A stretch of 50,779 bases of DNA from Bacteroidales bacterium (GTDB lineage Bacteria; Bacteroidota; Bacteroidia; Bacteroidales; JAAYJT01). The position numbers and the translations under genes were made by a program. A model generated the notes under the pieces. It did not search any database. It had not been told where the DNA came from and saw nothing but the letters and a program-made list of their open reading frames with translations. Below are positions 10,833 through 28,087 of this stretch, piece after piece (the stretch's first letter is position 1; each line of letters begins with the position of its first letter). Location of the stretch: contig JAAYJT010000006.1 in NCBI GenBank assembly GCA_012522795.1, forward strand, positions 1-50,779. Reading direction: 5' to 3'.

Positions 10833-12626
10833 CTAATACCTTTTTCTTGGCTTGTAGTGAGTATGCAGCAGATCATGAGCTTTATGGCTATTAGCCTCTC
10901 CAAGGAATTCCTTGTAAAGACGTACTACTTCAGGATTATCATGCGACTTACGTAAAGGCATGCCTTCGTCCTCAGCATAAATTGCTTCGGCACGTTTCTT
11001 CCTGATCTCCAATGATGTTGGAATAGGCTGCCCACCACCTCCAAGGCATCCACCCGGACATCCCATAACTTCAATAAAATGGTAATTAGCCTCGCCTGAC
11101 TGTACTTTTTCCATAAGAATTTTGGCATTTGCCAATCCATGGGCGACAGCTACATTTAGATCAACACCTTCAAGAAAACTCCACTCGGGCTTTACATTCT
11201 TAATTTTAATTGTAGCTTCCCTAACACCTTCCATACCACGAACCGGAGTAATATTCAGATTAGTAAAAGGTACTTCGTTACCTGTAACAATTTCATAGGC
11301 AGTGCGTAATGCAGCTTCCATAACACCACCGGTAGCACCAAAAATTACAGCTGCTCCGGTTGATTCACCAAGAATGCTGTCATATTTTTCATCTTCAAGT
11401 TTTTCAAAATCAATGCCAGCCTGACGTATCATCATTGCCAATTCGCGTGTAGTAAGGATATAATCCACATCCTGATAACCACTGTCACGCATTTCAGGGC
11501 GATTTGCTTCAAATTTCTTGGCAGTACATGGCATGATGGAAACCACAACCATATCCTGAGCCTTAATGTTAATCTTATCAGCATAATATGTTTTAGACAA
11601 AGCTCCAAACATCTGCTGTGGTGACTTACAGCTCGATAGATTATTTAACAAATCAGGAAAGATATGTTCCTGGAATTTAATCCATGCCGGCGAACAGGAA
11701 GTCATGAGAGGCAGCGCTATATTTTCATCGTTATCTACCAGAGCTCTCTTCAGGCGTGTGAGTAATTCAGTACCTTCCTCAATAATTGTAAGATCAGCAG
11801 CAAAGTCAGTGTCAAGAACTTTACTAAAACCAATTTTCTTTAAAGCTGATACAAGTTTTCCTGTTACCCTTAAACCAGGATCAAAGCCAAGGTCTTCGGC
11901 AAGAGCAACTCGAATGGCCGGTGCAGTTTCAACAACAACAAATTTATTGGGATCATAGATAGCATCCCATACTTCATCAATATAACTACGTTCAGTGAGA
12001 GCACCCGTTGGACAACGATTTACGCATTGTCCGCAATTTGTACAAACCACTTCATTCAATGGTTTACCAAGGAAGGTAGATATCTTCTGCTGATCTCCCT
12101 TATTTATCACTGCCAACGCACTCACAGCCTGCAAATCAGTACATGTACGAACACAACGCTGGCAACGGATACATTTGCTATCATCCTTAACGATTGAAGG
12201 TGAACTTATATCCTGAATTTTATCCTTTGGCTTCACAAGATCAAGAAAAACATGATCGCCAATACGATATTCGCTTGAAAGGGTCTGTAGCTCACAATTA
12301 CCATTCTTAAAGCATTTTGTACAGTCCGAATTGTGTTCTGACAACAGTAACTCAATAATGTGCTTACGTGATGTTCTTACCTTTTCGCTATTTGTAAACA
12401 CTTCCATTCCTTCAGAAACAGGAGTGGCACAAGCTGCTGCAAGTAATTTTGCTCCTTTTACTTCAACCACACAAACACGGCAATTTCCAGCCACATTTAA
12501 ATCGGGGTGGTCGCAAAGAGTAGGGATACGAAAATTGATCCTACTGGCAGCTTCCAGAATAGTTGTACCTTCTTCAACTGAAACCGGTATATTGTTTATC
12601 TTTAGATTAACCAGATACTTACTCAT
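10833..12626 (-). CDS. hydA: [FeFe]-hydrogenase catalytic subunit HydA1 (HndD-like, group A3)
   Basis: This 597-residue protein carries the H-cluster. Domain order: plant-type [2Fe-2S] (C38, C49, C52, C66), His-Cys3 [4Fe-4S] (H98, C102, C105, C111), two [4Fe-4S] ferredoxin clusters (C152/155/158/162; C195/198/201/205), then the H-domain with L1 TSCSPAW (C311, S312), L2 MPCTAKKFE (C367) and L3 EVMGCPGGCLGGGGQP (about 521 and 525), ending with the small-subunit-like tail. L1 has Ser where the second Cys of TSCCP stands in HydA2, and an extra Cys occurs in SSCKSPQQ (C333). Last gene of the hydCBA operon, 21 bp after hydB1. Confidence 0.95.
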   Translation of the reverse strand: MSKYLVNLKINNIPVSVEEGTTILEAASRINFRIPTLCDHPDLNVAGNCRVCVVEVKGAKLLAAACATPVSEGMEVFTNSEKVRTSRKHIIELLLSEHNSDCTKCFKNGNCELQTLSSEYRIGDHVFLDLVKPKDKIQDISSPSIVKDDSKCIRCQRCVRTCTDLQAVSALAVINKGDQQKISTFLGKPLNEVVCTNCGQCVNRCPTGALTERSYIDEVWDAIYDPNKFVVVETAPAIRVALAEDLGFDPGLRVTGKLVSALKKIGFSKVLDTDFAADLTIIEEGTELLTRLKRALVDNDENIALPLMTSCSPAWIKFQEHIFPDLLNNLSSCKSPQQMFGALSKTYYADKINIKAQDMVVVSIMPCTAKKFEANRPEMRDSGYQDVDYILTTRELAMMIRQAGIDFEKLEDEKYDSILGESTGAAVIFGATGGVMEAALRTAYEIVTGNEVPFTNLNITPVRGMEGVREATIKIKNVKPEWSFLEGVDLNVAVAHGLANAKILMEKVQSGEANYHFIEVMGCPGGCLGGGGQPIPTSLEIRKKRAEAIYAEDEGMPLRKSHDNPEVVRLYKEFLGEANSHKAHDLLHTHYKPRKRY

Positions 12627-12647
12627 AATTTTATTCTTTTAAGTTTT

Positions 12648-13814
12648 TTAGTAAATAATTTCTTCCCTGAAGTTATCGACAATAGAATTAAAAGGATTAC
12701 CAACCGATTGTCCTAAACCACACTTTGCAGCAATACGCATGGTAGTGGTGAGTTTTTTCAGATCATCAAGGTACGATGGTGGTTTTTCACCTCTTTTTAC
12801 AGCTTCAATTCCTTTTAATAACTGCTGACAACCAACACGGCAGGGAGTACACTGTCCGCATGATTCCTCAGTAAAGAATTCCAGATAGTCATGCAGCACA
12901 TTGTACATAGAACGCGTACTATTGAAAATCATCATTGAACCACCGGTGGGAATTCCTTCAAAACCAATGATTGTGTCATTGAACTTTTTACGCGGCACAC
13001 AATGCCCTGATGCACCTCCTACCTGAACAGCCTTGGCATCGCCATCAGCAAATTCATCAACAAATTGATTCAATGGCATACCAAGTTCCAGTTCATAGAT
13101 TCCTGGTATAGGAGTGTCGCCTGAAACTGAGAAAACCTTTGACCCGCGGGAGTCTTTGGTTCCAAGTTCTTTAAATTTCTGAACGCCCAATCTCGAAATC
13201 ATGGTAACATATACCAATGTTTCAACATTATTAATTACTGTGGGTTTTTTATTATAGCCTGCAACAGTAGGATAAGGAGGTTTATTTCTTGGCTCCCCTC
13301 TATATCCCTCCATTGATTCAAACAAAGCACTTTCTTCACCGCAAACATAAGCACCACTACCAGAACGGATAGCTATCTGAAAATCGAGATTCCTGTCTTT
13401 TAAGTGTTTATTAAAATTATCAAGCTTTTTCTGAAGACCTTTAACTAAGAAATTATATTCACCACGAATATAAATATAGCCTTCTTTGGCACCTACTACA
13501 TAACCACAAATTGCCATTCCTATAAAGACTTTCTCAGGCACCTTGTCAAGTATTTCACGATCTTTAAAAGTACCCGGTTCTCCTTCGTCAGCGTTACAGA
13601 TAACATATTTAACATCGCTATCTTCATTTTTGGTGAATTTCCATTTCAATCCTGTAAGAAATCCTGCACCACCTCTTCCTTTTAAGCCTGAATCAATAAG
13701 ATCCAGAATAATATCATCGGCAGGTTGTGCCAGCGCTTTATCCAATATATCAAGAAGATTACAATCTTCATCCATTTGGAATATTATATCTACTTTTTTA
13801 ATTTGCTTGTCCAT
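12648..13814 (-). CDS. hydB: NADH-binding flavoprotein subunit HydB1 (short NuoF-like)
   Basis: This 388-residue subunit binds FMN and NAD(H) and passes electrons to HydA1. It shows the glycine-rich NADH/FMN motifs GRGGAGFLTGLKW and CNADEGEPGTFKDRE, the GAYVCGEESAL segment, and the C-terminal [4Fe-4S] set ESCGQCTPCRVG (C319, C322, C325) with C365. It lacks both the N-terminal thioredoxin-like [2Fe-2S] domain and the C-terminal double [4Fe-4S] domain found in the 597-residue HydB of the second operon. Short HydB proteins are known from NADH-dependent, ferredoxin-independent hydrogenases such as Syntrophomonas wolfei Hyd1ABC (from memory), so Hyd1 may be non-bifurcating. Confidence 0.93.
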   Translation of the reverse strand: MDKQIKKVDIIFQMDEDCNLLDILDKALAQPADDIILDLIDSGLKGRGGAGFLTGLKWKFTKNEDSDVKYVICNADEGEPGTFKDREILDKVPEKVFIGMAICGYVVGAKEGYIYIRGEYNFLVKGLQKKLDNFNKHLKDRNLDFQIAIRSGSGAYVCGEESALFESMEGYRGEPRNKPPYPTVAGYNKKPTVINNVETLVYVTMISRLGVQKFKELGTKDSRGSKVFSVSGDTPIPGIYELELGMPLNQFVDEFADGDAKAVQVGGASGHCVPRKKFNDTIIGFEGIPTGGSMMIFNSTRSMYNVLHDYLEFFTEESCGQCTPCRVGCQQLLKGIEAVKRGEKPPSYLDDLKKLTTTMRIAAKCGLGQSVGNPFNSIVDNFREEIIY

Positions 13815-13845
13815 CTTAGGTTAATTTTAAGTTATTAATTTGTTA

Positions 13846-14310
13846 CTATTTTCTGGAATATTCTTCTATAACCTCTATGGCTTTCTGCGGGGTTAATTCG
13901 GTATATACTTCATCATTTACAAGCATAACAGGCCCTTTATGACACCATCCAAGGCAATTTACTGTAAGAAGTGTGAACATTTTGTCATGTGTGGTCTCTC
14001 CTGCTTTGATCTTCAGCATATTTTCAAGTGCCAGCAACACTTCATCCTTACCTTTCATATGACAGGTAATTGTTTTACAAATCCTAATAATATTTTTTCC
14101 ACGCGGAATAGTATCAAGGAAAGTGTAAAATGAAGCAGTACCATAAACATCAGCGGCAGAGAGATCTAGCTCTCTGGCTACGGCGATCATAGCATCTTCA
14201 GAAAGGTATCGTTCTTCCTGAACAACACCTTGTAAAACAGCCATTAAGCTGTTACGAGTTTTTCCATGCTTTCTGACAAGCTTTTGGACTAATTGATCAG
14301 TTTTCGACAT
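13846..14310 (-). CDS. hydC: NuoE-like [2Fe-2S] subunit HydC1
   Basis: This 154-residue thioredoxin-fold ferredoxin is the first gene of the hyd1 operon. The [2Fe-2S] ligands CKTITC (C78, C83) and CLGWC (C119, C123) match the NuoE pattern C-x4-C...C-x3-C, after the helical bundle with VYGTASFYTFL. A GGAGG ribosome site (14319-14315 on the minus strand) sits four bases before the ATG, unusual for this window. Two Rex-like operators lie upstream. Confidence 0.94.
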   Translation of the reverse strand: MSKTDQLVQKLVRKHGKTRNSLMAVLQGVVQEERYLSEDAMIAVARELDLSAADVYGTASFYTFLDTIPRGKNIIRICKTITCHMKGKDEVLLALENMLKIKAGETTHDKMFTLLTVNCLGWCHKGPVMLVNDEVYTELTPQKAIEVIEEYSRK

Positions 14311-16353: not shown

Positions 16354-16384
16354 TTTGCCAGTAACTTTTAAGTAGCTATCTTTG
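16354..16384 (+). promoter_or_regulatory. Promoter of the ten-gene signalling/hydrogenase operon
   Basis: TTTG at 16354-16357, a 19-bp spacer and TATCTTTG at 16377-16384 match the Bacteroidota primary sigma consensus TTTG-N19-TAnnTTTG exactly. Transcription should start near 16389, giving a leader of about 50 bases. Confidence 0.75.
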
Positions 16385-16439: not shown

Positions 16440-16784
16440 ATGAAGATTCAGAAAATCAATGAGCTTTTAAACGCTGAGGTCGTTTGCGGAGAGATCACCA
16501 ATGATAGTGAAATTGCCTTTGCTTTTGCTTCAGATTTGATGAGCGAAGTACTCACAATTAAAAAGGATGGGATTGTACTTCTTACAGGATTATGCACTAT
16601 TCAGGCTATTCGCACTGCCGAAATGTCTGATATTCACTGCATTATCTTTGTAAGAGGAAAAAAGGTAAGCGAAGAAATGATAGAGCTTGCAAAAGAAAAC
16701 AATATCATACTTCTTAAATGCCAGTACTCAATGTTTAAAACCAGTGGGATTTTATATTCTGAAGGAGTTCAACCGGTTTATTAA
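16440..16784 (+). CDS. DRTGG domain protein 1, first gene of the hydrogenase signalling operon
   Basis: This 114-residue protein is a stand-alone DRTGG-type domain, recognisable by the FASDLMSEVL segment (DLMS motif) and the alternating beta/alpha pattern, including VLLTGLCTIQAIRTAEMSDIHCIIF. DRTGG domains usually accompany CBS pairs or phosphotransacetylase-type enzymes and are thought to bind ligands; the role of the free form is unknown. It has four Cys (16, 52, 67, 94). The next ORF starts at the last base of its stop codon, so the two are coupled. No Shine-Dalgarno site. Confidence 0.8.
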   Translation: MKIQKINELLNAEVVCGEITNDSEIAFAFASDLMSEVLTIKKDGIVLLTGLCTIQAIRTAEMSDIHCIIFVRGKKVSEEMIELAKENNIILLKCQYSMFKTSGILYSEGVQPVY

Positions 16785-17233
16785 TGAAAATTATAATGAT
16801 GGAACCAATGCATCTGCAATACGAACTGGAAGGTGGAAACTTCACTAAAGCGGGATTTGCTTCAAGTGAAATTAAGAAAGTATTGAAACAGCTTAATGTA
16901 GATGCAAAAACCATTAAACGTATTGTGGTATCATCGTACGAAGCAGAAGTTAATATTGTAGCACATGCCTATAGCGGAATTATCAATGCATGGATTGATA
17001 ATGAAAAGATAGTCTTACATTTCAACGATAAAGGACCTGGAATTCCGGATATTGAAATGGCTATGCAGGCAGGATACTCAACTGCTTCGCCGGCAGTTAG
17101 GGAAATGGGATTTGGGGCAGGTATGGGCTTACCAAATATAAAAAATAATGTTGACCTGCTGGAAATAAATAGTGAAGTCAATAAAGGGACCTTAGTTAAA
17201 TTTACAATAGGTTTAACGCCTGAAATGAATTAA
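16784..17233 (+). CDS. RsbW/SpoIIAB-like ATP-binding protein (anti-sigma/serine kinase fold)
   Basis: This 149-residue HATPase-fold protein shows the N box SYEAEVNIVAHAY (N57), G1 box NDKGPGIPD (D82, G84, G86) and G2 box GFGAGMGLPNIK (G109-G115). The compact size and lack of a dimerisation/phosphoacceptor domain fit the anti-sigma factor/serine kinase class rather than sensor histidine kinases. No STAS antagonist or sigma factor lies nearby; the natural partners are the flanking DRTGG protein and Fe-S sensor (inference). It follows DRTGG1 with a one-base overlap and precedes the sensor gene by one base. Confidence 0.85.
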   Translation: MKIIMMEPMHLQYELEGGNFTKAGFASSEIKKVLKQLNVDAKTIKRIVVSSYEAEVNIVAHAYSGIINAWIDNEKIVLHFNDKGPGIPDIEMAMQAGYSTASPAVREMGFGAGMGLPNIKNNVDLLEINSEVNKGTLVKFTIGLTPEMN

Positions 17234-17234
17234 A

Positions 17235-18587
17235 ATGAACAACAAGTTTTTTCATCACGCATTGTACTTCTCCAAAGAAACCTGTATAGGTTGTACACAT
17301 TGCATGAGAGTATGTCCAACCCAGGCAATACGGGTGCGTAATGGAAAAGCCGAACTGCTTCCAAATCGTTGTATTGACTGTGGAGAATGTTACAGGGTAT
17401 GCCCTGTGGATGCTGTTAAGGTTGAGCAGGACGATTTCAACCTTATCTACAATTACAAATACAGGGTAGTGCTTATTCCCGGTGTATTTTTAGGTCAATT
17501 CCCCGAAGACATCAACCAGCAACAGATATACAGCGTACTGATTGAACTTGGATTTACTCATGTATGTGAAGTAGAAACCGGTGCAGAAATCCTTAAAAGC
17601 GTTATGGCTGATTATATTGACGAAAACCTGCATATCAGACCCATGATATCTTCGTTCTGCCCTGCCATAGTTAGACTTATTCAGGTAAAATTCCCTTCGC
17701 TGGTAAACCATTTGATACCTTTAAAACAACCGTTGGACATTGCAGGATTTTATGCTAAACAACTTCTTATAAAACAAGGAGCTGAACAAGATGAAATCGG
17801 TGTGTTTTATATTACACCCTGTGCCGCTAAAATTGCGGCAATCAAAAGTCCGGTGGGCGAAACTCAATCAGTGATTGATGGTGTAATAAATATAGACTTT
17901 GCTTACAATAAAGTACTAACCATTATAAGGCAATCAAAATCAAAAAAGTTTCCTTCAGCTAAAGAATCTAATTTGAGCCCTGAAAGTATTTTATGGGCTT
18001 TAACTACAGGCGAGTCATCAGTAATGAGAGGCAGAAGTCTTGCTATTGATGGCATCAGCAATGTTATTGAATTTCTTGAGCAGCTTGAAAATGAAGAGAT
18101 GAGCAATATTGATTTTCTTGAATTACGTGCATGCGACGAAAGCTGCGCCGGTGGCATATTAACAAGCTCAAATCGTTTCTTTACTTCCGAAAGGTTGAGA
18201 AACAGGGCAAAATCAGTACAACACCCGGCAGAAAGAAACGAAAACGACATTCATAATTTCAGAGAATATTTATCTAAACATTTTAGTATTGAAAAAATCA
18301 AACCTCGTTCAATGCTAAAGCTAGATGAAAATATTGGCAGCGCTCTTGAAAAAATGAAAAAAGTGAATGAGCTGATGGAGATTCTGCCATATGTGGATTG
18401 CGGTATTTGCGGCTCCCCTACATGCCAGTCGCTGGCAGAAGACACTGTTAGAAATGAAACTGAGATAAGTCGTTGTATTTTCATTCAGCGCATTCTTGAA
18501 CAGAAAGGCACTTTTACTAATGAGGAATCAGTAAAAATAATGAAGGAGATCTGGGGTGAAGGGAAACTAGATAAAGACTTGAAATAA
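17235..18587 (+). CDS. H-cluster-type Fe-S sensor protein ([FeFe]-hydrogenase-like, non-catalytic class)
   Basis: This 450-residue protein has two N-terminal [4Fe-4S] motifs (C17/20/23/27 and C46/49/52/56), a hydrogenase large-subunit domain, and a C-terminal DCGICGSPTC...C Fe-S domain (C389, C392, C397, C414). All four H-cluster cysteines can be placed: C142 in L1 (SSFCPAIV), C196 in L2 (TPCAAKIAA), C300 and C304 in L3 (ELRACDESCAGG). The relay Cys before C142 is Phe, the L2 Glu is Ala and the GGGxP end of L3 is lost. This matches the putatively sensory group C/D hydrogenases rather than H2-producing ones, but no PAS or phosphatase domain follows. Output probably passes to the neighbouring ATP-binding proteins. 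Confidence 0.85.
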   Translation: MNNKFFHHALYFSKETCIGCTHCMRVCPTQAIRVRNGKAELLPNRCIDCGECYRVCPVDAVKVEQDDFNLIYNYKYRVVLIPGVFLGQFPEDINQQQIYSVLIELGFTHVCEVETGAEILKSVMADYIDENLHIRPMISSFCPAIVRLIQVKFPSLVNHLIPLKQPLDIAGFYAKQLLIKQGAEQDEIGVFYITPCAAKIAAIKSPVGETQSVIDGVINIDFAYNKVLTIIRQSKSKKFPSAKESNLSPESILWALTTGESSVMRGRSLAIDGISNVIEFLEQLENEEMSNIDFLELRACDESCAGGILTSSNRFFTSERLRNRAKSVQHPAERNENDIHNFREYLSKHFSIEKIKPRSMLKLDENIGSALEKMKKVNELMEILPYVDCGICGSPTCQSLAEDTVRNETEISRCIFIQRILEQKGTFTNEESVKIMKEIWGEGKLDKDLK

Positions 18588-18679
18588 ACTGAGAAAACCA
18601 GATAGAAAATGTAAAATAACGGACAAAACATCATAAAACAGTGAATAACAGCTTAATAAATGAATAATTTAAAGATATA

Positions 18680-19024
18680 ATGAAAAAGCATAAAGTAAGT
18701 GAAATAGTTAAAAACCTTAATCTCAAAGTACTGAGTGGCGGCGAGGGGCTAGATCGTAAAGTATCAGGAGGTTATGTATGCGATCTGTTAAGTGATGTAA
18801 TGGGCAATTCAAAAGAAGGGCAGATATGGGTCACTCTGCAAACACATAAAAATGTTATGGCAATTGCCTCGTTGCGCGATCTTGCCGCTATTTTACTCAT
18901 TAATGGTGTGAACCCTGATGAAGATACAATAGCACAAAGTGAAACTGAGGGTATACCTATTCTTGGAACTGATATGCCGGCATTTGAAATTGCCGGAAAA
19001 TTATATGAACTAATTAACAAATAA
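18680..19024 (+). CDS. DRTGG domain protein 2
   Basis: This 114-residue protein is a second free DRTGG-type domain (GGYVCDLLSDVMGNS; then IWVTLQTHKNVMAIASLRDLAAILL). It is the same length as DRTGG1 but diverged in sequence, so the two probably have distinct partners or ligands. It overlaps the start of the PHP gene by one base (TAATG). It lies 92 bp after the sensor gene, the longest gap in the first half of the operon; I see no terminator in that gap. Confidence 0.8.
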   Translation: MKKHKVSEIVKNLNLKVLSGGEGLDRKVSGGYVCDLLSDVMGNSKEGQIWVTLQTHKNVMAIASLRDLAAILLINGVNPDEDTIAQSETEGIPILGTDMPAFEIAGKLYELINK

Positions 19025-19764
19025 TGAAAACTTTCAGGGCTGATCTGCATATTCATACTGTACTCTCGCCATGTGGAGATCTGGAGATGAGCCCTATAAA
19101 TATTATACAAAAGGCAAAAGAAAAAAAACTGGATATAATAGGCATCACCGACCATAACAGCACCAGAAACAGCCTGCTCACACGAAGGCTTGCAGAAAAG
19201 GAAGGCATTACGGTGTTTTGCGGAGCTGAAGTTACAACAAAAGAAGAGGTGCATTGCCTGGCGTTCTTTGAAACCGATGAAGCAATTGAAGAGTTTCAGC
19301 AATTTCTTGAAAAACAATTACCTCCGGTAAAAAACGATGTAAACCGTTTCGGAGAGCAAATTGTACTTGATGAAGATGAAAATATCATTGATGAGATCCC
19401 CTACCTGCTTATTTCAGGATTACATGCTGGTATTGACAAGGTAGAAGAAATGGTTCATAAATTAAATGGCATCTTCATTCCGGCTCATATTGACAGAGCT
19501 TATTACAGCATACAGAGCCAGTTGGGGTTTGTACCGCCTAATCTTAAAGCCGATGCCTTTGAGATTTCAAGAAATGCAAAACCGGAGGAATTATTGAAAG
19601 AGCTGATGATCAAAGAGGATGCAACTTTTATAAAAAACTCCGATGCTCATTATATTGAAGATGTTGGAAGAACTTATAGTGAGTTTTACATGGAAGAACC
19701 AAGTTTTAAAGAGTTCAGAATGGCACTGGCAGGTATTAACGAACGAAGTGTTAAAATACAATGA
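19024..19764 (+). CDS. PHP domain metal-dependent phosphoesterase
   Basis: This 246-residue protein has a complete set of PHP metal ligands: DLHIHT (H9, H11), GITDHNS (D43, H44), CGAEVTT (E69), EVHCLAF (H77), PAHIDR (H155) and NSDAHY (D207, H209). PHP enzymes hydrolyse phosphoesters such as histidinol phosphate or nucleotides. In this operon it may dephosphorylate a partner protein or a small signalling molecule (inference). It overlaps the next gene by four bases (ATGA). Confidence 0.88.
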   Translation: MKTFRADLHIHTVLSPCGDLEMSPINIIQKAKEKKLDIIGITDHNSTRNSLLTRRLAEKEGITVFCGAEVTTKEEVHCLAFFETDEAIEEFQQFLEKQLPPVKNDVNRFGEQIVLDEDENIIDEIPYLLISGLHAGIDKVEEMVHKLNGIFIPAHIDRAYYSIQSQLGFVPPNLKADAFEISRNAKPEELLKELMIKEDATFIKNSDAHYIEDVGRTYSEFYMEEPSFKEFRMALAGINERSVKIQ

Positions 19765-20339
19765 AAGATCTGGCATTACATATTCTTGACATTACGCAAA
19801 ACTCAATTACTGCCGGAGCTAACCTGATTGAAATAATTATCAATGAAGATGCACCTGATGGTATGATAAGCATTTACATAAAAGATAATGGTGCGGGCGT
19901 ACCCAAAGAAATGCTGAAACAAATCACTGATCCTTATACAACATCACGCAAAACAAGAAAAGTGGGAATGGGATTACCTCTCTTAAGGCAGAATGCAGAA
20001 CAAACTGGAGGATCACTTACTATAAATTCAGAATTAGGAAAAGGAACTGAAGTAAATGTGAAGTTTGCAGCCACCCATATTGACCTGCCTCCATGGGGTG
20101 ATATTTCAGGAGTAATTATTTTAATGGTAGCTGCTAATCCTGAAATAATTTTTTCATACATTCACCGCTCGGTAAAAGGAGAGTATGAGTTTGATACAAG
20201 AGAGGTAAAAAAGGCTCTTGAAGGTGTACCAATTGATAATGCTGAGATAAGAGAATTCTTAAAGGATATGATAAATGAGAACCTGAATGAAATTGGGGCA
20301 TGTAACACGAAATTATGGGAAAAGGATAATAATCAATGA
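19761..20339 (+). CDS. HATPase-fold protein with an extra C-terminal domain
   Basis: This 192-residue protein has the HATPase boxes: N box LHILDITQNSITAGA (N14), G1 IKDNGAGVPKEM (D42, G44, G46) and G2 KVGMGLPLLRQNAE (G69, G71). The fold here begins at the N box without a dimerisation helix, so it resembles the ATP-binding half of a histidine kinase. Residues about 108-180 form an additional domain starting PPWGDISGVIILMVAANPE that I do not recognise. Coupled to the PHP gene by a four-base overlap. Confidence 0.82.
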   Translation: MKDLALHILDITQNSITAGANLIEIIINEDAPDGMISIYIKDNGAGVPKEMLKQITDPYTTSRKTRKVGMGLPLLRQNAEQTGGSLTINSELGKGTEVNVKFAATHIDLPPWGDISGVIILMVAANPEIIFSYIHRSVKGEYEFDTREVKKALEGVPIDNAEIREFLKDMINENLNEIGACNTKLWEKDNNQ

Positions 20340-20534: not shown

Positions 20535-20927
20535 ATGACAAAAATCAAAACCCTGGCCGATCTTAAAAAGATGAAAGAAGAAGTTCGGTCGAAGATTACC
20601 CTGAGAGAACAAGGAGATAATCCTGAAGACAGGGTACAGGTAAAAGTAGCTATGGCTACCTGTGGTATTGCATCCGGTGCAAAGGATGTTATGGATTTCA
20701 TGGTAGGTGCTTTCAATAAAAGAGGAATTGACGCAGTAGTAACCCAAACTGGTTGTATGGGCTATTGTTATGCCGAACCCACTGTTGAAGTTACAGTTCC
20801 CGGAAAGGAACCTGTTGTGTTCGGTTATGTAGATGTGAAAAAAGCTGATGAAATTATTGAAAAGTATATTAAAAAGGGAATTTTGCTTGAAGGCATCATT
20901 CCCGTGAATTATCAAACTATTGAATAA
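20535..20927 (+). CDS. Thioredoxin-like ferredoxin of the hydrogenase operon (TM1420-like)
   Basis: This 130-residue protein resembles the C-terminal [2Fe-2S] domain of NuoE and the small ferredoxin that accompanies Thermotoga-type hydABC (TM1420, from memory). The second half-motif GCMGYC (C74, C78) is intact, but the first, ATCGIASGA, keeps only C43 where C-x4-C is expected, so just three Cys are present. Residues 1-35 are a charged helical extension. The ATG at 20535 is chosen because GGAGG precedes it; an upstream GTG has no ribosome site. It is followed 18 bp later by hydB2. Likely electron carrier or cluster-status partner; unproven. Confidence 0.82.
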   Translation: MTKIKTLADLKKMKEEVRSKITLREQGDNPEDRVQVKVAMATCGIASGAKDVMDFMVGAFNKRGIDAVVTQTGCMGYCYAEPTVEVTVPGKEPVVFGYVDVKKADEIIEKYIKKGILLEGIIPVNYQTIE

Positions 20928-20945: not shown

Positions 20946-22739
20946 ATGTCAAATTACAAAATGCATTTGCTTGTATGTTCAGGAACAGGCTGTCACGCTT
21001 CGGAAAGTGACCAGTTACTGATTAACCTGCAAAATGAAATTGCTCTCCGGGACCTGGCAGATGATGTGCAGGTAATAGGCACTGGCTGCTTTGGGTTCTG
21101 CGAAAAAGGACCTATTGTTAAGGTAATCCCTGACAATACTTTTTATACTGAAGTAAAATCTGCTGATGTTACTGAAATTGTTGCCGAACATGTGATCAAA
21201 GGTCGCAAGGTTGAACGGCTTCTTTACAAGGACCCGGTTACAAAAGAACATGTTACCGACTCAAAACACATGGGATTCTATCAGAAACAATTACGTATAG
21301 CGTTGCGTAACTGCGGTTTCATTAATCCTGAAAACATTGATGAATATATCGGTCGTGACGGATATGCAGCCCTTGGCAAAGTACTTCTGGAAATGACTCC
21401 CGAAGAAGCCATTAAAGAAGTAATGGATTCAGGACTTCGAGGACGTGGTGGTGGCGGATTCCCGACCGGCCTGAAATGGCAAATAACCAGAGAAGTACAA
21501 GCCGATCAGAAATATGTGGTATGCAACGCTGACGAAGGCGACCCGGGTGCTTTTATGGACCGTAGTATTCTTGAAGGCGACCCTCACAGCGTTCTTGAAG
21601 CAATGGCAATATGTGGTTATTGCATAGGTGCAAGTAAAGGGCTTGTATATATCCGCGCTGAATATCCCCTCGCTATTGAAAGACTGAAAACTGCCATTAA
21701 ACAGTCTATTGAATATGGTTTACTTGGTGATGATATATTAGGCAGCGGCTTTAATTTTGATATTGAACTCCGCTATGGTGCAGGTGCTTTTGTTTGTGGT
21801 GAAGAAACAGCTTTGATACATTCAATGGAAGGCGAACGTGGAGAACCTACATTCAAGCCACCGTTCCCATCGGTAAGCGGATATCTTGGCAAACCCACCA
21901 ATGTTAACAACGTGGAAACTTTTGCCAATATCCCTGTAATCTTCAACAAAGGCGCCAAATGGTTCTCAGGTATTGGCACTGAAAAGTCGAAAGGAACTAA
22001 AGTTTTTGCTCTTGCAGGAAAAATCAATAATGTTGGATTGATTGAAGTTCCAATGGGTACTACCCTTCGTGAAGTAATTTTTGAAATCGGAGGTGGTATT
22101 AAAGGTGGTAAAAAATTCAAGGCAGTTCAAACAGGTGGACCTTCAGGTGGTTGCCTTACTGAAAAGCATCTTGACACACCCATTGATTTTGACAACCTTC
22201 TTGCTAGTGGCTCAATGATGGGTTCGGGAGGTATGATAGTAATGGATGAAGATGACTGTATGGTGGCCGTTGCCAAGTTTTTCCTTTCATTTACAGTGGA
22301 TGAAAGCTGTGGAAAATGTACTCCCTGCCGTATCGGAAACAAACGTTTATATGAAATGCTGGAAGCCATAACAAAAGGTAAGGCAACAGTTGAAGATCTC
22401 GATAAAATGCAGAACCTCAGCAATGTCATCAAAGACACATCGCTTTGTGGTTTAGGTCAGACTTCACCAAATCCGGTATTATCAACCATGAATAATTTTT
22501 ACGATGAATATCTGGCTCACGTAGTAGATCACAAATGTCCTTCAAGTCAGTGTAAGGATTTATTACGTTACGAAGTTATAGAAGAAAATTGCGTTGGTTG
22601 TACTGCCTGCGCCCGTAATTGCCCTGTTAATTGTATCAGTGGTGAGCGCAGACAAGTGCATTATATTGACCAGTCGCTTTGTATAAAATGTGGCGAATGC
22701 TTTGAAAGATGTAAGTTCGACGCTATAGCAGTGAATTAA
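20946..22739 (+). CDS. hydB: Electron-bifurcating-type hydrogenase subunit HydB2 (long NuoF-like)
   Basis: This 597-residue flavoprotein has three parts: an N-terminal thioredoxin-like [2Fe-2S] domain (C11, C16, C48, C52), the NuoF core with FMN/NADH motifs GRGGGGFPTGLKW and CNADEGDPGAFMDRS plus the ESCGKCTPCRIG cluster, and a C-terminal double [4Fe-4S] domain (C549/552/555/559 and C579/582/585/589). This full domain set is that of Thermotoga-type bifurcating HydB, which couples NADH, ferredoxin and H2. GGAGG lies eight bases before the ATG. It contrasts with the 388-residue HydB1 of the other operon. Confidence 0.95.
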   Translation: MSNYKMHLLVCSGTGCHASESDQLLINLQNEIALRDLADDVQVIGTGCFGFCEKGPIVKVIPDNTFYTEVKSADVTEIVAEHVIKGRKVERLLYKDPVTKEHVTDSKHMGFYQKQLRIALRNCGFINPENIDEYIGRDGYAALGKVLLEMTPEEAIKEVMDSGLRGRGGGGFPTGLKWQITREVQADQKYVVCNADEGDPGAFMDRSILEGDPHSVLEAMAICGYCIGASKGLVYIRAEYPLAIERLKTAIKQSIEYGLLGDDILGSGFNFDIELRYGAGAFVCGEETALIHSMEGERGEPTFKPPFPSVSGYLGKPTNVNNVETFANIPVIFNKGAKWFSGIGTEKSKGTKVFALAGKINNVGLIEVPMGTTLREVIFEIGGGIKGGKKFKAVQTGGPSGGCLTEKHLDTPIDFDNLLASGSMMGSGGMIVMDEDDCMVAVAKFFLSFTVDESCGKCTPCRIGNKRLYEMLEAITKGKATVEDLDKMQNLSNVIKDTSLCGLGQTSPNPVLSTMNNFYDEYLAHVVDHKCPSSQCKDLLRYEVIEENCVGCTACARNCPVNCISGERRQVHYIDQSLCIKCGECFERCKFDAIAVN

Positions 22740-22743
22740 TTAA

Positions 22744-22748
22744 GGAGG
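22744..22748 (+). promoter_or_regulatory. Strong Shine-Dalgarno site of hydA2
   Basis: TAAGGAGGT seven bases before the ATG is fully complementary to the 16S rRNA tail, whereas most genes in this window have no such site. Confidence 0.75.
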
Positions 22749-22755
22749 TAGAAAC

Positions 22756-24531
22756 ATGAACAAAATAAAAGTAAATATTGATAATACTATTGTTGAGGTA
22801 GATCCAGGTACAACTATCCTGCAAGCAGCCCGACAAATTGATATTGATATTCCCACTTTGTGCTATATGCACCTTGGTGATATGGGAATAGAACATAAAC
22901 CGGGTGGTTGCCGTATATGCGTTGTTGAAGTTAAAGGACGCCGCAACCTCGCTCCTGCCTGCGCTACTGAATGTACTGAAGGTATGGAAATTGAAACCCA
23001 TAATATTCGAGTTCTAAACGCCCGCAAAACAGTTATGGAATTAATTCTGTCCGACCATCCGTCAGAATGTCTGTTATGTGCAAAAGCAGGTAACTGCGAT
23101 CTCCAGACAACTGCAATCAAGATGGGTATCCGTGAAATTCCATATCAGGGTGAACAAAGCACCTATAAGGAAGATACTTCGCCTGCCATAATACGCGATA
23201 TGGATAAATGTATTATGTGCCGCCGTTGTGAAACAATGTGTAATGAGGTACAAACCGTTGGTGTGCTTTCAGCTATAAACCGTGGATTCATGTCAGTTAC
23301 GGCACCTGCTTTTGAACGCAATCTCGATCATAGTGAATGTACTTATTGCGGACAATGCGTAGCCGTTTGTCCAACAGGTGCATTGACTGAAGTGGATCAT
23401 ACAAATCAGGTAATTCGTCATCTGGCTGATCCCAACAAGGTAGTTGTGGTTCAAACTGCTCCCGCTGTTAGAGCTGCCCTGGGTGAAGAATTCGGTTTAA
23501 AACCAGGAACACTTGTTACGGGTAAACTAGTAGCTGCATTACGTCGTTTGGGTTTTGATTATGTGTTTGATACTGATTTTGCTGCCGACCTTACTATTAT
23601 GGAAGAAGGTACTGAATTACTTGAGCGTTTGAACAAATACCTTAGCGGCGATAAGGATGTAAAACTGCCTATGCTTACATCCTGTTGCCCGGGATGGGTC
23701 AACTTTTTTGAATACCATTTCCCCGACATGCTTGATATACCTTCAACAGCACGATCACCTCAGCAAATGTTCGGAGCTATAGCCAAGAATTATTTCGCTG
23801 AAAAAATAAATGTAAAACGAGAGAATCTCGTGGTTGTGTCAATCATGCCTTGCGTTGCCAAAAAGTATGAATGTACTCGTGAAGAATTCAGCGTCAATGG
23901 AAATCCTGATGTTGATTTTGCTCTTTCAACCCGCGAATTGGCTAACCTGATCAAACGAGCCAATATCAATTTCAATAAGCTGAATGACGAAGATTTCGAT
24001 CGTCCTCTTGGTGAATCAACAGGTGCCGGAGTTATTTTCGGAGCAACTGGCGGTGTAATTGAAGCAGCCATAAGAACTGCATACGAAGTCCAAACTGGTA
24101 AGAAACTGGAAAAGGTAGATTTTGAGCAACTTCGTGGTTTGGAAGGAATCCGTTCTGCTAAAGTTGATTTTGACGGACTGGAATTAAGCATAGGAATTGC
24201 TCACGGACTTGGTAATGCCCGTAAGCTGCTTGATGATATCAGACAAGGTAAGAGTCAGTACCACGCTATTGAAATTATGGCATGTCCTGGTGGATGTATT
24301 GGCGGTGGTGGTCAACCATTGCATCATGGCGATTCATCAATACTTAAGGCAAGACAAAGAGCTATTTATGAAGAAGATGCAAACAAGCCTATACGTAAAT
24401 CACACGAAAACCCATATATTATTCAGTTGTATGAAGAATATCTGGGTAAACCTTTGGGCGAAAGATCGCATCAGCTTTTGCATACTTCTTATTTTGATAA
24501 AAGTAAAAAATTAATTGAAATAGAGGAATGA
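22756..24531 (+). CDS. hydA: [FeFe]-hydrogenase catalytic subunit HydA2 (bifurcating type)
   Basis: This 591-residue protein has the same order of domains as HydA1: plant-type [2Fe-2S], His-Cys3 cluster, two ferredoxin [4Fe-4S] clusters (CIMCRRCETMC; CTYCGQCVAVCP), then the H-domain. All catalytic motifs are canonical: L1 TSCCPGW (C310, C311), L2 MPCVAKKYE, L3 EIMACPGGCIGGGGQP. The L1-following segment is STARSPQQMFG, without the extra Cys of HydA1. It ends with the small-subunit-like tail. Partner of HydB2 and HydC2. No HydEFG maturation genes lie in the window. Confidence 0.97.
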   Translation: MNKIKVNIDNTIVEVDPGTTILQAARQIDIDIPTLCYMHLGDMGIEHKPGGCRICVVEVKGRRNLAPACATECTEGMEIETHNIRVLNARKTVMELILSDHPSECLLCAKAGNCDLQTTAIKMGIREIPYQGEQSTYKEDTSPAIIRDMDKCIMCRRCETMCNEVQTVGVLSAINRGFMSVTAPAFERNLDHSECTYCGQCVAVCPTGALTEVDHTNQVIRHLADPNKVVVVQTAPAVRAALGEEFGLKPGTLVTGKLVAALRRLGFDYVFDTDFAADLTIMEEGTELLERLNKYLSGDKDVKLPMLTSCCPGWVNFFEYHFPDMLDIPSTARSPQQMFGAIAKNYFAEKINVKRENLVVVSIMPCVAKKYECTREEFSVNGNPDVDFALSTRELANLIKRANINFNKLNDEDFDRPLGESTGAGVIFGATGGVIEAAIRTAYEVQTGKKLEKVDFEQLRGLEGIRSAKVDFDGLELSIGIAHGLGNARKLLDDIRQGKSQYHAIEIMACPGGCIGGGGQPLHHGDSSILKARQRAIYEEDANKPIRKSHENPYIIQLYEEYLGKPLGERSHQLLHTSYFDKSKKLIEIEE

Positions 24532-24604
24532 TAACCGGAGAAAGGTTCTAATGTGAGTAAAAATAATAATCCTTTTTATTTTCAATTTTTAAATCAGAAA
24601 TAAC

Positions 24605-25087
24605 ATGACATCAATAAAAGTAAAACTTAAAGAAAAAGATGTTGCTCAACTGAAACAGGTTTGCAAAGAATTTAATAATGAAGCCGGCGAACTGATAAAT
24701 GTGTTACATAAAGCACAGGGCATTTTCGGTTATCTGCCTGCAGAAGTACAGGAAATTGTAGCTCAAGAATTAAATGTATCAGTAGCAAAGGTATATGGAG
24801 TAGTAACTTTCTACTCTTTCTTCACTATGATACCCAAGGGTTTACACCCAATTTCAATATGTACCGGTACAGCTTGTTATGTTCGTGGTGCTGAAAAGGT
24901 TCTTGATGAATTCAAACAACAATTGAACATCAAGGTTGGTGAAACCACACCAGATGGTAAATTTTCGTTGAGCTGCTTGCGTTGTGTAGGAGCTTGCGGA
25001 TTGGCACCTGTAGTTCTTATAGGTGAAAAAACCTACGGACGTGTCTCTCCTGACGGCGTTAAAGACATCTTAAAGGAATACGAATAA
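24605..25087 (+). CDS. hydC: NuoE-like [2Fe-2S] subunit HydC2
   Basis: This 160-residue thioredoxin-fold ferredoxin carries CTGTAC (C86, C91) and CVGAC (C127, C131), after the helical bundle with VYGVVTFYSFF. It is the last gene of the operon, after hydA2, instead of before hydB as in the hyd1 operon and in Thermotoga. Unlike hydB2 and hydA2 it has no GGAGG site. A terminator follows. Confidence 0.95.
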   Translation: MTSIKVKLKEKDVAQLKQVCKEFNNEAGELINVLHKAQGIFGYLPAEVQEIVAQELNVSVAKVYGVVTFYSFFTMIPKGLHPISICTGTACYVRGAEKVLDEFKQQLNIKVGETTPDGKFSLSCLRCVGACGLAPVVLIGEKTYGRVSPDGVKDILKEYE

Positions 25088-25353: not shown

Positions 25354-26193
25354 TTACTTTAACTGCCTTTGTATTCTGTGTTTTTGATGGAAATATTTTA
25401 GCAGCCAAATAGCAAGGTACAGAACTACAAAAACAAAGATGATGATAGCTCCTGAGGGCAAATCTGCAATATATGAAATGTATAGTCCTGTTATACTGCC
25501 CAATACCCCGAAAATAACGGAATAAATGATAATGTGTTTAAAATTCCGGGTTAGCAGGTTTGCAGCCGATTGTGGTATTGTAAGGTATGAGATCACAAGG
25601 ATAATGCCTATAACCCTGATATTCAGCACAATGACTAAAGCTACGAGGGCAATTAATATATAATTAAATGTGTTTACCGGTAGTTTATGACTTTGAGCGT
25701 ATTCTTCATCGAACGAGATAAAGAGAATGATGCGGTAGAACAGAATAAAAAACAGTATGAGTAATGAGCAAAGAATTATCATGAAATTAATATCGGTATT
25801 GCTTACTGTAAGAATATTCCCGAAAAGGTAGGTCATAAGATTGGGAGCATATCCGGGAGTAAGGAAAATGAAAATGATACCCAGTGCCATCCCAAACGAC
25901 CAGATTATTCCGATGGCAGAATCTTCGCGGATCTCAGTCTTTTTTGAGATGAACTCAATACCCAGTGCCGATAGCAGTCCGAAAGCAGCACCTCCAAACA
26001 TTGGATTTATACCAAAAAAATACCCCATTCCAATCCCGCCAAAAGATGCATGAGTAATCCCTCCGGCAATGAACACTTTGCGCCGTGCAACTATATAAGT
26101 TCCGGCAATACCACATGATATACTTGCCAGTAAGGCGGCCAGCAGGGCTTTGCTGAAAAATGAATAGCTGATAAGTTCAATAAATTCAGCCAT
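25354..26193 (-). CDS. znuB: Metal ABC transporter permease (ZnuB/MntB family)
   Basis: This 279-residue inner-membrane protein has about eight hydrophobic helices and the ABC-3 family segments VARRKVFIAGGITHASFGGIG near the N-terminus and LVISYLTIPQSAANLLTR further on. It should form the channel for Zn2+ or Mn2+ import. The start follows the stop of znuC by one base, so the two are translationally linked. Metal choice cannot be read from the permease. Confidence 0.92.
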   Translation of the reverse strand: MAEFIELISYSFFSKALLAALLASISCGIAGTYIVARRKVFIAGGITHASFGGIGMGYFFGINPMFGGAAFGLLSALGIEFISKKTEIREDSAIGIIWSFGMALGIIFIFLTPGYAPNLMTYLFGNILTVSNTDINFMIILCSLLILFFILFYRIILFISFDEEYAQSHKLPVNTFNYILIALVALVIVLNIRVIGIILVISYLTIPQSAANLLTRNFKHIIIYSVIFGVLGSITGLYISYIADLPSGAIIIFVFVVLYLAIWLLKYFHQKHRIQRQLK

Positions 26194-26194
26194 A

Positions 26195-26950
26195 TTAGTG
26201 ATCGTGTTTCTTTAATACAGTATGAGGAATATCGCCGTGAGTAATAATCTGGATCGGGCAGCCGTAAGCAGCAAGCTGTTTCTCAGTGATAATGTTTGAC
26301 GGATGGTAATTCAAATATTTATTTACGCAGGCTATTGTTTTTACATAATATGAAATAGTACCTATATCGTGGGTAACAACAATGATAGCCATGGTTTTGT
26401 TAAGCTCCAGCAGAATATCATAAAGATCGGCTTCAAATTTACTGTCAACAAAAGTATTAGGTTCATCCAGAATAAGCAGGGAAGGGGATGTAATGATAGC
26501 ACGGCAGAGAAAAACCCTCTGCATCTGCCCGCCCGACAGTTCTCCGATCGGCCTTGAGTAAAGATCGCTGATACCCATCCTGGCAAGCAGTTCAATGGCT
26601 TTATCCTTATCAGCCTTCGTATATTTTTTAAAAACAGCTTTCTCAGATGCCAGACCTGATAGCACAACATCAATTACAGAAATTGGAAAACGCTTATCAA
26701 AAAGGCTTATCTGAGGTAAATACCCGATTTGGTTCTTTGTATCCCTGCCACTTGCCTTATGCATTATTATCCGACCTTTAACAGGTTTGAGCAAACCAAC
26801 CATCAGCTTTACCAGAGTTGTTTTCCCTCCTCCGTTCGGACCAATTATCCCAATAAAATCATTTGAATTTATAGTGAGATTTACATCCTTAAGAATGATC
26901 CCTTCACCATAAGTAGCCGAAATGTCAATCAATTCAAAAATCTTGCCCAT
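26195..26950 (-). CDS. znuC: Metal ABC transporter ATP-binding protein (ZnuC family)
   Basis: This 251-residue ATPase drives the importer. Walker A GPNGGGKTT, signature LSGGQMQRV, Walker B LLILDEPNTFVD and the H-loop VVTHD are present. The start chosen is the internal Met of MGKIFELIDISATYG, because the 34 residues upstream are Arg/Lys/Phe-rich and do not belong to the fold. The gene begins 119 bp after znuA. Confidence 0.94.
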   Translation of the reverse strand: MGKIFELIDISATYGEGIILKDVNLTINSNDFIGIIGPNGGGKTTLVKLMVGLLKPVKGRIIMHKASGRDTKNQIGYLPQISLFDKRFPISVIDVVLSGLASEKAVFKKYTKADKDKAIELLARMGISDLYSRPIGELSGGQMQRVFLCRAIITSPSLLILDEPNTFVDSKFEADLYDILLELNKTMAIIVVTHDIGTISYYVKTIACVNKYLNYHPSNIITEKQLAAYGCPIQIITHGDIPHTVLKKHDH

Positions 26951-27069
26951 AGAGATAATAGATTTCTTTAAATGCAAAAGTAATTCTTTATTCCGGGTTC
27001 TGAAAAAACAATTACCTGATCGTAATCTTTTCCGGATTAATGTTATAAACAACTTTTTAATTATAGTTT

Positions 27070-27969
27070 CTATGGGTTCAGTGCTTTCTGTATGGTATGA
27101 GAAATGGCGTACATGCCTGCAAACCAGTCTTCTTCAAGAGGGTTAAGGATCTCAATTTTTGCGGATATTTCAGCAGCCACAACTTCAGCCGAAGCAGTAT
27201 TAAACTGACTTTGAACTAGTATGGTGTGAATATCCAACTTTCGGGCAACATCAATTATATTTTTAATATGCGAACCGGTAGGCTCTTTGCCGTCTGATTC
27301 CAGTGCAATTTGCTCAAGTCCATAGGTTCTTGCAAAATATGTAAAAGCCGGATGATATATCAGAAATGTTTTGATCGGAGAATCTGCAAGCAGCCCTTTA
27401 ATATGATCGTCGAGTTTATCAATATCCTTTGTGAAATCCTCATAATTAGCCATATACATCTCCCTATTGTCCAGGTCAAATTCCAGAAATGTTTTCAGAA
27501 TTGTACTGATTTGTATTCTTACTTCTGTCGGCGATAGCCAGTGGTGAGGGTCAATACCGTGAAGATGGACATGGTCGCCGTGGTTAACTACTTCCCCTGC
27601 AATCAGGTCAATACCTTTACTGAGATCAACCGTAAGAGTTTCAGAACTTTTCTCTGATTTGTCAATAATATGATCCTCAAACATCAGATTGCCATTAATA
27701 AAGAAAACAGCTGAATTGCTCAGATCTTTTATTTGTTTTGGAGTTGGTTCGTAAGTTTCGGGGCTTACCCCCGGAGGCGTAATGACCTGGACTTCAAAAT
27801 TATCTCCTGCAATACGCTCAACAAAGTATTTATAGGGCAGTATACTTACTGATATTACAGGCTTTTCTTTAACGGAAACAGGAACACAGGCTACGGTCAT
27901 TGCTGCCACTATGCCTAAGCTCAGGATTTTTTTTAATAAATTTCGGAAATTCTGTAATACTGATAGCAT
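27070..27969 (-). CDS. znuA: Metal ABC transporter substrate-binding lipoprotein (ZnuA family)
   Basis: This 299-residue lipoprotein binds the metal outside the inner membrane. Residues 1-27 form a signal peptide ending MTVAC, with C28 as probable lipidation site. The cluster-9 features follow: SILPYKYFVERIAGD, PPGVSPETYEPTP, a short His-rich loop HGDHVHLHG, the ligand His in DPHHWLSP, and later FLIYHPAFTYFA. The His loop favours zinc over manganese. I chose the second possible Met, since an 11-residue upstream extension adds nothing to the signal peptide. First gene of znuACB. Confidence 0.9.
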   Translation of the reverse strand: MLSVLQNFRNLLKKILSLGIVAAMTVACVPVSVKEKPVISVSILPYKYFVERIAGDNFEVQVITPPGVSPETYEPTPKQIKDLSNSAVFFINGNLMFEDHIIDKSEKSSETLTVDLSKGIDLIAGEVVNHGDHVHLHGIDPHHWLSPTEVRIQISTILKTFLEFDLDNREMYMANYEDFTKDIDKLDDHIKGLLADSPIKTFLIYHPAFTYFARTYGLEQIALESDGKEPTGSHIKNIIDVARKLDIHTILVQSQFNTASAEVVAAEISAKIEILNPLEEDWFAGMYAISHTIQKALNP

Positions 27970-28087
27970 AATTTCATTGATTAGCCCGTATGACGAAACC
28001 AAACTCCATTGGTTTCAGAAAAACATGAATAACAGCAAGCACCTGTTTTTATAGGTGTAACAGTTTCTTAGACCCTTAATTTATTAA

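Follow-up and report, generated by a model that had tools for sequence, protein, structure and literature searches.

A six-gene module with a putative group D sensory [FeFe] hydrogenase, two GHKL ATPases and paired DRTGG proteins, associated with HydBC-type enzymes in Bacteroidota

Results

We analysed a stretch of 50,779 nucleotides from a Bacteroidales bacterium (contig JAAYJT010000006.1; the whole stretch is called the window), which carries on its plus strand, at 16440–20339, six intact open reading frames (ORFs) that may form a regulatory module for HydBC-type enzymes. The first, DRTGG1 (16440–16784), encodes a stand-alone DRTGG protein of 114 amino acids (aa; PF07085, 29.7 bits), and is followed by the gene for a SpoIIAB/RsbW-like GHKL ATPase, below RsbW (16784–17233; PF13581, HATPase_c_2, 36.8 bits), and by that for HydS, a putative sensory [FeFe] hydrogenase of group D (M2e) type (17235–18587; Fer4, PF02906 or Fe_hyd_lg_C, and PF04060 or FeS). 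Then come DRTGG2 (18680–19024), again a stand-alone DRTGG protein of 114 aa (PF07085, 27.7 bits), a PHP phosphoesterase-like protein (19024–19764; PF02811 and PF13263, PHP and PHP_C) and HAT2 (19761–20339), a second GHKL ATPase, of 192 aa (PF02518, HATPase_c, 60.5 bits), with a MutL/gyrase-like fold as modelled. Pfam cut-offs were passed by both DRTGG matches and by those to HATPase_c_2, Fe_hyd_lg_C, FeS, PHP and HATPase_c. In the 2.9 Mb source genome (G000, 97% complete; G and L labels denote genomes and loci of this analysis), the two DRTGG genes are the only matches to PF07085 at E≤0.001. The junctions from DRTGG1 to HAT2 are, in order, an overlap of 1 base, gaps of 1 and 92 bases, and overlaps of 1 and 4 bases, the 92-base gap separating the HydS gene from DRTGG2; an alternative RsbW start at 16808, favoured by most aligned relatives, would turn the first junction into a gap of 23. 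The six genes thus run in one direction into ferredoxin-like and hydBAC genes, and at four of the five junctions neighbours overlap or are at most 4 bases apart, as an earlier note on this DNA had described.

A contig scan that used the PHP protein as query yielded 282 relatives. The best 80 of these loci, a set chosen by similarity, were all from Bacteroidota by title, and the six genes keep their order in 67 of them. As an unselected set we took every PHP-positive genome, 59 of 198 sampled from the order Bacteroidales, which gave 59 loci (58 besides the source locus, nine of them contigs also among the best 80). Since 42 of these 59 loci keep the six genes in order, and 33 of the 42 run on into the genes for the [2Fe-2S] protein (Fdx) and HydB, the order is far beyond chance. 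DRTGG2-PHP-HAT2 stand in order in 51 of the 59, and contig ends cut several of the 17 loci that lack the full order. Outside Bacteroidota we met one case, a Subdoligranulum record (Bacillota, Clostridia; a 'plasmid' of a gut assembly), where the same ten genes make up two divergent operons, HydC-HAT2-Fdx-HydB-HydA on one strand and DRTGG1-RsbW-HydS-DRTGG2-PHP on the other, RsbW and HydS being separated there by an unrelated ORF. The earlier note had supposed that the neighbourhood exists elsewhere, and it is indeed kept beyond the source genome and, by this one record, beyond the phylum. A Parabacteroides distasonis record has the bare six genes, with no hydBAC within the 24.7 kb shown, and a scan of viral contigs with RsbW (93 stretches) found no relative. 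An Acetoanaerobium plasmid record has a HydS-like place that bears no annotation.

The module consists of two trios, DRTGG1-RsbW-HydS (trio A) and DRTGG2-PHP-HAT2 (trio B), and we counted the co-occurrence of their members over the 198 genomes, with thresholds that include E≤1e-20 for PHP and E≤1e-60 for HydS. RsbW is present in 58 of the 59 PHP genomes versus 3 of the 139 without PHP (Fisher test, 3e-45), HydS in 54 of 59 versus 3 of 139 (9e-39), and HydS in 57 of 61 RsbW genomes versus none of the 137 without RsbW (2e-45), values that ignore relatedness among genomes of varying completeness. The sole PHP genome without RsbW (G218) has its PHP gene at a contig end. The trios are separable: their order is reversed in G248 (DRTGG2-PHP-HAT2, then DRTGG1-RsbW-HydS), they lie about 26 kb apart in G148, and in five genomes (G243, G267, G279, G295 and G330) both are present on different contigs, with unrelated genes adjoining trio A. 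Three genomes (G216, G292 and G324) have RsbW and HydS and no PHP at the threshold. Because co-occurrence is near-perfect even when the trios are unlinked, they probably work together without needing adjacency; a hitchhiking or chance neighbourhood, which we also considered, was rejected in view of the co-occurrence of unlinked trios.

To describe HydS and its partners, residues were counted over the distinct proteins gathered (123 for HydS, DRTGG1 and HAT2, 128 for RsbW and 129 for PHP). The N-terminal ferredoxin cysteines of HydS are nearly invariant (Cys27, 46, 49, 52 and 56 in 123/123, Cys17 and Cys23 in 122, Cys20 in 120), as are the H-cluster cysteines Cys142, 196, 300 and 304 and Glu296 (all 123/123) and Lys199 (121/123). 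At the position of the group A proton-relay cysteine (C299 of CpI) we found Phe in 100 proteins, Tyr in 22 and Ala in one, and at that of CpI Met353, Thr in 117 and Ser in six. Four C-terminal cysteines (Cys389, 392, 397 and 414) are present in all 123, with the spacing Cx2Cx4Cx16C in the window protein, which has the PF04060 match and no Pfam match to a PAS domain. With two N-terminal [4Fe-4S] sites, no relay cysteine, Ser or Thr in place of Met353, the C-terminal motif and no PAS, HydS is laid out as published for group D (M2e) putative sensory [FeFe] hydrogenases. In a tree of 37 rows, in which TamHydS, the group D protein of Thermoanaerobacter mathranii, was not a row, 16 module HydS form one clade (100/99) that includes the Clostridia protein and stands apart from HydA and from eight PAS-type HydS (100/100; the PAS domain was confirmed by Pfam in L036 only). 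What had been called an H-cluster-type Fe-S sensor is, as judged from its residues, a sensory-hydrogenase-type protein with all the H-cluster cysteines. The maturases HydE, HydF and HydG are above cut-off in the source genome.

In RsbW, which has an N box of SpoIIAB type, Glu53, Glu55 and Asn57 are present in 128/128 proteins. DRTGG1 has Asp32 and Ser35 in 123/123 and Thr49 in 122/123, and in a joint alignment of DRTGG1 and DRTGG2 (36 rows) this Asp, Ser and Thr (D32, S35, T49) are the only invariant residues. The AlphaFold2 (AF2) model of DRTGG1 (pLDDT 94.8) is closest to the DRTGG protein AF1212 (Z 17.1, rmsd 1.9, 113 residues), and places S35 in the first turn of helix 34–38, after strand 27–30, a position that recalls the phosphoserine of STAS proteins. 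Designed 'Pizza' proteins also came up as relatives of DRTGG, and were rejected as an artefact of summed repeats. DRTGG1 and RsbW form a single protein in two genomes of different families, G292 (272 aa) and G216 (279 aa). The G292 fusion scores 24.2 bits with PF07085, just below the cut-off of 25.2, and the two fusions reach 74 and 85 bits with the DRTGG1 profile of this analysis. This natural fusion supports the idea that DRTGG proteins are plausible partners. G047, which belongs to a different class of Bacteroidota, has RsbW joined to a CBS pair in one protein. The locus that carries this CBS-fused version (L013, 1277–8383) has a HydC fused to a FAD/Fer4 HdrA-like N-terminus, adjoining HypC/D/E-like genes (by eye), and its contig stops before the catalytic subunit.

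A protein phosphatase of the SpoIIE-type PP2C family was found in 49 of the 59 module genomes versus 16 of the 139 others, and, within genomes with a group A hydrogenase, in 49 of 58 with the module versus 15 of 68 without. It is encoded in trans as a rule; in the source genome the gene lies on contig C37, outside the window. It stands beside a long HydS (assigned by PAS clade or by length) near the module in nine distinct loci (11 listed, two contigs twice), five of them among the unselected 59, and in the fetched flank of the module in 12 further loci, one with a weak fragment. At L081 (4473–7515), L082 (4234–7267), L087 (4150–7183) and L168 (3079–6153) a PAS-type HydS and a SpoIIE-type PP2C directly precede the module on its own strand, which puts both kinds of sensory hydrogenase into one array. 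A Monoglobus record has a sensory-type hydrogenase of 560 aa followed by a SpoIIE phosphatase, with no module genes annotated nearby. SpoIIAB-SpoIIAA-SpoIIE and RsbW-RsbV-RsbU are partner-switching systems, and STAS proteins are the usual substrates of such kinase and phosphatase pairs. With PF01740, the sole STAS model used, we found no match in the source genome or in G266, and matches in G195 and G330 only to frames longer than 500 aa. A small STAS protein is lacking in 4 of the 14 genomes tested, all four of which have RsbW and PP2C.

The PHP protein retains candidate metal residues throughout, with His9, His11, Asp43, His44, Glu69 and His77 in 129/129 proteins and His155, Asp207 and His209 in 128/129. 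Its nearest solved relative by sequence is Endonuclease Q. A role in anti-phage defence, considered since the protein resembles TrlF and Ppl N-termini, was rejected: PADLOC gave only weak partial matches to PHP (E 2.9e-8 to 4.2e-6) and none to either ATPase, and the hydrogenase context is also contrary to it. The AF2 model of HAT2 (pLDDT 90.0) best matches MutL N-terminal domains (Z 13.9, rmsd 2.6, 142 residues), although HAT2 scores best against HATPase_c in Pfam and against histidine kinases among profiles of known structures. Asp10, which we take to occupy the place of the MutL catalytic Glu, is found in 122 of 123 proteins with one gap; the 192 aa leave no room for a MutL C-terminal domain. 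Of the two ATPases that the earlier note had read as likely kinases, RsbW keeps that standing as a SpoIIAB-like protein with invariant catalytic Glu and Asn, whereas the MutL/gyrase-type model of HAT2 lends no support to a kinase role, though it does not disprove one. The phosphoesterase assignment of PHP likewise fits its intact metal site, but the opposing phosphatase is likely to be the SpoIIE-type PP2C as much as PHP, or in its place. PHP and HAT2 form one ORF of 427 aa in L028, a single metagenome-assembled genome in which a sequencing slip is possible.

Downstream of the module lie genes for a [2Fe-2S] ferredoxin-like protein (20535–20927, plus strand; matches to PF01257 and NF041613 are weak and under cut-off, and the start is inferred from an ATG with GGAGG), HydB (20946–22739, plus; NuoF-like, named by sequence and gene order, and the likely target subunit), HydA (22756–24531, plus; a catalytic [FeFe] hydrogenase of group A type, TIGR02512 549.5 bits, cut-off 405.95) and HydC (24605–25087, plus; NuoE-like, PF01257 171.3 bits). 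Nearly all module genomes (58 of 59) encode a group A [FeFe] hydrogenase, against 68 of the 139 others. The link to hydrogenase that had been proposed stands as an association and is not strict, because in G236 a module without HydS precedes Fdx-HydB-FdhA-HydC, where the 900-aa FdhA has molybdopterin oxidoreductase domains (Pfam) and FdhD- and MobA-like genes lie upstream (by eye). In G216 and G292 a smaller relative of the module (DRTGG2, the DRTGG1::RsbW fusion and a HydS-like protein) lies 5′ of HydC-HydB and a molybdopterin-like subunit of 766–775 aa, with Nfn-like genes nearby (by eye). The common denominator of the targets may thus be the HydBC (NuoEF-like) core, which, with one formate dehydrogenase and one related case, is a lead rather than a rule. 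According to the accessible text of its description (PMC9304861), a HydBC-type core, there named BfuBC, recurs in a family whose catalytic partners are numerous; this limit to the accessible text holds for every paper cited here. At L183 (13518–15818) and L184 (1584–3911) the 766–775 aa subunit is NuoG-like with a divergent molybdopterin region and adjoins HydBC and NfnAB-like genes, beside a reduced form of the module and with no PHP at E≤1e-20; the cluster is perhaps an undescribed bifurcating complex.

TTTG-N19-TATCTTTG is the Bacteroidetes promoter consensus, and a perfect match to it lies 5′ of DRTGG1 (16354–16384, plus strand). The pattern occurs seven times in the window versus 4.45 expected, which alone is not significant. 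Over 109 distinct loci, however, the strict pattern lies within 350 nucleotides 5′ of DRTGG1 in 19, versus 1.0 in mononucleotide shuffles, and before any later module gene in at most three loci each. Because the pattern is enriched before DRTGG1 and rare before later genes, DRTGG1 probably heads a transcript. Between the window and L125, synonymous divergence (dS) is infinite for six genes out of ten, with a value of 3.4 in hydB; nonsynonymous proportions (pN) are well under the synonymous ones (pS), and dN/dS is not usable.

Two separate hydABC clusters, at 10833–14310 (minus strand) and 20946–25087 (plus strand), flank an enolase gene within a 14 kb stretch of the window, and their HydA proteins fall in different clades of the tree. 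No module copy accompanies the minus-strand cluster; several relatives have a cluster like it 5′ of the module on the same strand. Genes of an ABC-type metal uptake system (permease, ATPase and binding protein, by eye) at 25354–28002 on the minus strand are convergent with hydC, and no link to the module was seen.

Discussion

Gene content, gene order, co-occurrence, fusions and conserved residues are observed, and both the gene set and its association have good support. Tentatively, we read the set as a two-arm regulatory module, a partner switch that uses DRTGG where others use STAS, and that would tune HydBC-type electron-bifurcating enzymes. In arm A, HydS would bind H2, or read the redox state of ferredoxin, and alter the activity of the RsbW-like kinase, which would phosphorylate or grip DRTGG1 as its substrate or antagonist; Ser35, at the start of its helix, is the candidate acceptor. 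A SpoIIE-type PP2C, associated with the PAS-type (group C) HydS and usually encoded elsewhere, would oppose or reset the kinase. In arm B, DRTGG2, PHP and the MutL-like HAT2 would together serve for output or reset, as an ATP-gated phosphoesterase that acts on the bifurcating enzyme or on the expression of its genes. We infer the phosphorylation of DRTGG at Ser35, the identity of the signal as H2, the sequence in which the arms act, the target, and the choice between activity and transcription as the output. The fullest version, in which group D and group C HydS play the RsbW-like kinase off against the SpoIIE-type phosphatase over phosphorylatable DRTGG proteins, and the DRTGG2-PHP-MutL-like arm passes the result on to control of a HydBC-type enzyme (hydrogenase, and in at least one genome formate dehydrogenase), is doubtful. 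As to the input, H2 is reported to alter the secondary structure of TamHydS without reducing its C-terminal cluster (PMC13104023), so, by analogy, a conformational signal is the more likely one for HydS.

A number of observations weigh against this proposal. All links between the module parts are genomic, and the Fisher values carry the reservations given with them. RsbW fails the SpoIIAB model TIGR01925 (60.1 bits, cut-off 135). The idea that DRTGG is STAS in disguise was rejected by fold, though not disproved, as no STAS chain is among the matches listed for the model, where DRTGG, HprK-N and Mur ligase N come first, and a small STAS protein is present in 10 of the 14 genomes tested. PP2C is missing in 10 of the 59 module genomes, and two of its 49 matches are weak (G248 and G344, 30–35% identity). 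HydS is absent at E≤1e-60 in four genomes that keep the other five genes (G179, G236, G293 and G296). G148 has the module and neither a group A nor a B1 hydrogenase at E≤1e-60, and at eight loci the six genes are intact with no Fdx-HydB in the 5.6–8.4 kb of downstream sequence. The redox state of the C-terminal cluster is not the signal in TamHydS. HydG above cut-off was not found in 9 of the 59 module genomes, and in seven of these (G150, G190, G197, G219, G243, G252 and G301; completeness 98, 95, 95, 99, 93, 99 and 78%, respectively) HydE and HydF are under cut-off as well. Either the maturases may have been missed through assembly gaps or be divergent (a possible alternative maturation), or HydS and HydA may lack a standard H-cluster there. 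These seven genomes carry the module HydS and a match to group A [FeFe] HydA; in G190 and G219 the L1 and L2 motifs of HydA are intact.

The data can also be read without any protein phosphorylation. DRTGG, and CBS where present, may bind an adenine nucleotide or a similar ligand, and PHP may hydrolyse that nucleotide or a nucleic acid, with both ATPases as ATP-gated clamps; the module would in this way link the energy charge of the cell to the bifurcating enzyme. Ligand sensing of this kind fits the G047 protein that joins a CBS pair to the RsbW-like ATPase, and also the nearness of PHP to Endonuclease Q and TrlF models, the MutL-like HAT2 and the single PHP::HAT2 ORF. DRTGG also adjoins CBS in pyrophosphatases controlled by adenine nucleotides (3l2b/3l31), as far as the accessible description goes. 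The CBS fusion was, however, met once, and the SpoIIAB kinase residues retained by RsbW, together with the co-occurring SpoIIE PP2C, point to protein phosphorylation; we consider ligand sensing unlikely.

Less probable still is that the six proteins assemble, activate or protect HydBC-type enzymes, with HydS as a scaffold or electron donor and no signalling. The module is attached to HydBC enzymes with varied catalytic subunits (HydA, FdhA and the molybdopterin-like proteins of 766–775 aa), and HAT2 lies inside the hydrogenase operon of the Clostridia record, both of which would suit an assembly or repair factor. Yet 68 of 126 group A [FeFe] genomes have no PHP match, the second hydCBA cluster of the window does without a module copy, and a SpoIIAB-type RsbW with a PP2C association suits signalling better. 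Two independent systems, with trio A sensing H2 and trio B serving another purpose, would explain why the trios need not be joined on the chromosome (G248; the five genomes with trios on different contigs) and why three genomes have RsbW and HydS without PHP; near-perfect co-occurrence even when unlinked, and paralogous DRTGG proteins with the same invariant Asp, Ser and Thr in both trios, make such independence very improbable.

Parts of this picture are already published, namely a group D hydrogenase that lies, together with a histidine-kinase-like ATPase, upstream of a bifurcating hydrogenase (PMC8163306, PMC3608648) and PAS-HydS with kinase or phosphatase partners (PMC6776011, PMC5707799). 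The physiological role of TmHydS was called unclear by its paper (PMC10055695), and how group D sensory hydrogenases signal was posed as a question, their biological role being called unknown (PMC8163306). In the literature within reach of our search, which mostly left out subscription papers, we found no description of the whole six-gene module. To judge by that search, the module itself is new, and so are its division into two separable trios, the fusion of DRTGG1 to RsbW, the association with PP2C together with missing STAS, and the variant linked to formate dehydrogenase. The module, which many anaerobic bacteria of gut and sediment carry, gives a concrete list of partners for group D sensors. 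How bifurcating hydrogenases and formate dehydrogenases are controlled is relevant to the H2, formate and acetate released by fermenters in gut, rumen and digester. If the STAS-less partner switch is true, a DRTGG kinase substrate would be a new partner in the partner-switching family and a new class of phospho-acceptor, and the switch could explain signal transfer by a puzzling class of sensor, as the first output route reported for group D.

The closest known protein is TamHydS, which shares with the module HydS two N-terminal [4Fe-4S] sites, the absence of the relay cysteine, Ser or Thr at Met353, the C-terminal Cx2Cx4Cx16C and the lack of PAS (PMC8163306, PMC13104023), and whose gene likewise has a histidine-kinase-like ATPase and a bifurcating group A hydrogenase in its neighbourhood (PMC8163306). 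At the relay position, however, 122 of the 123 module HydS have Phe or Tyr, whereas groups C and D mostly have Ala (PMC10407848), and the accessible account of the TamHydS neighbourhood names one ATPase and an AraC regulator (PMC8163306), where we describe five conserved partners. Group C PAS-HydS systems (R. albus, T. saccharolyticum hfs, and T. maritima HydS) also place a sensory [FeFe] hydrogenase with phosphorylation-type partners, a SpoIIE-type phosphatase or a kinase, near hydrogenase genes (PMC6776011, PMC5707799, PMC10055695), but their HydS, with PAS and a PP2C partner, belongs to a separate clade. Module genomes match SpoIIAB/RsbW partner switching in having a GHKL kinase with catalytic Glu and Asn and a SpoIIE-type PP2C; the module differs in having no STAS and no sigma factor, with DRTGG and PHP instead. 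Finally, the DRTGG1 model shares its fold with the regulatory region of CBS-DRTGG pyrophosphatase (Z 14.0). In contrast to that enzyme and to AF1212, the DRTGG proteins of the module stand alone, carry an invariant Asp-x-x-Ser and Thr, and are paired with GHKL ATPases.

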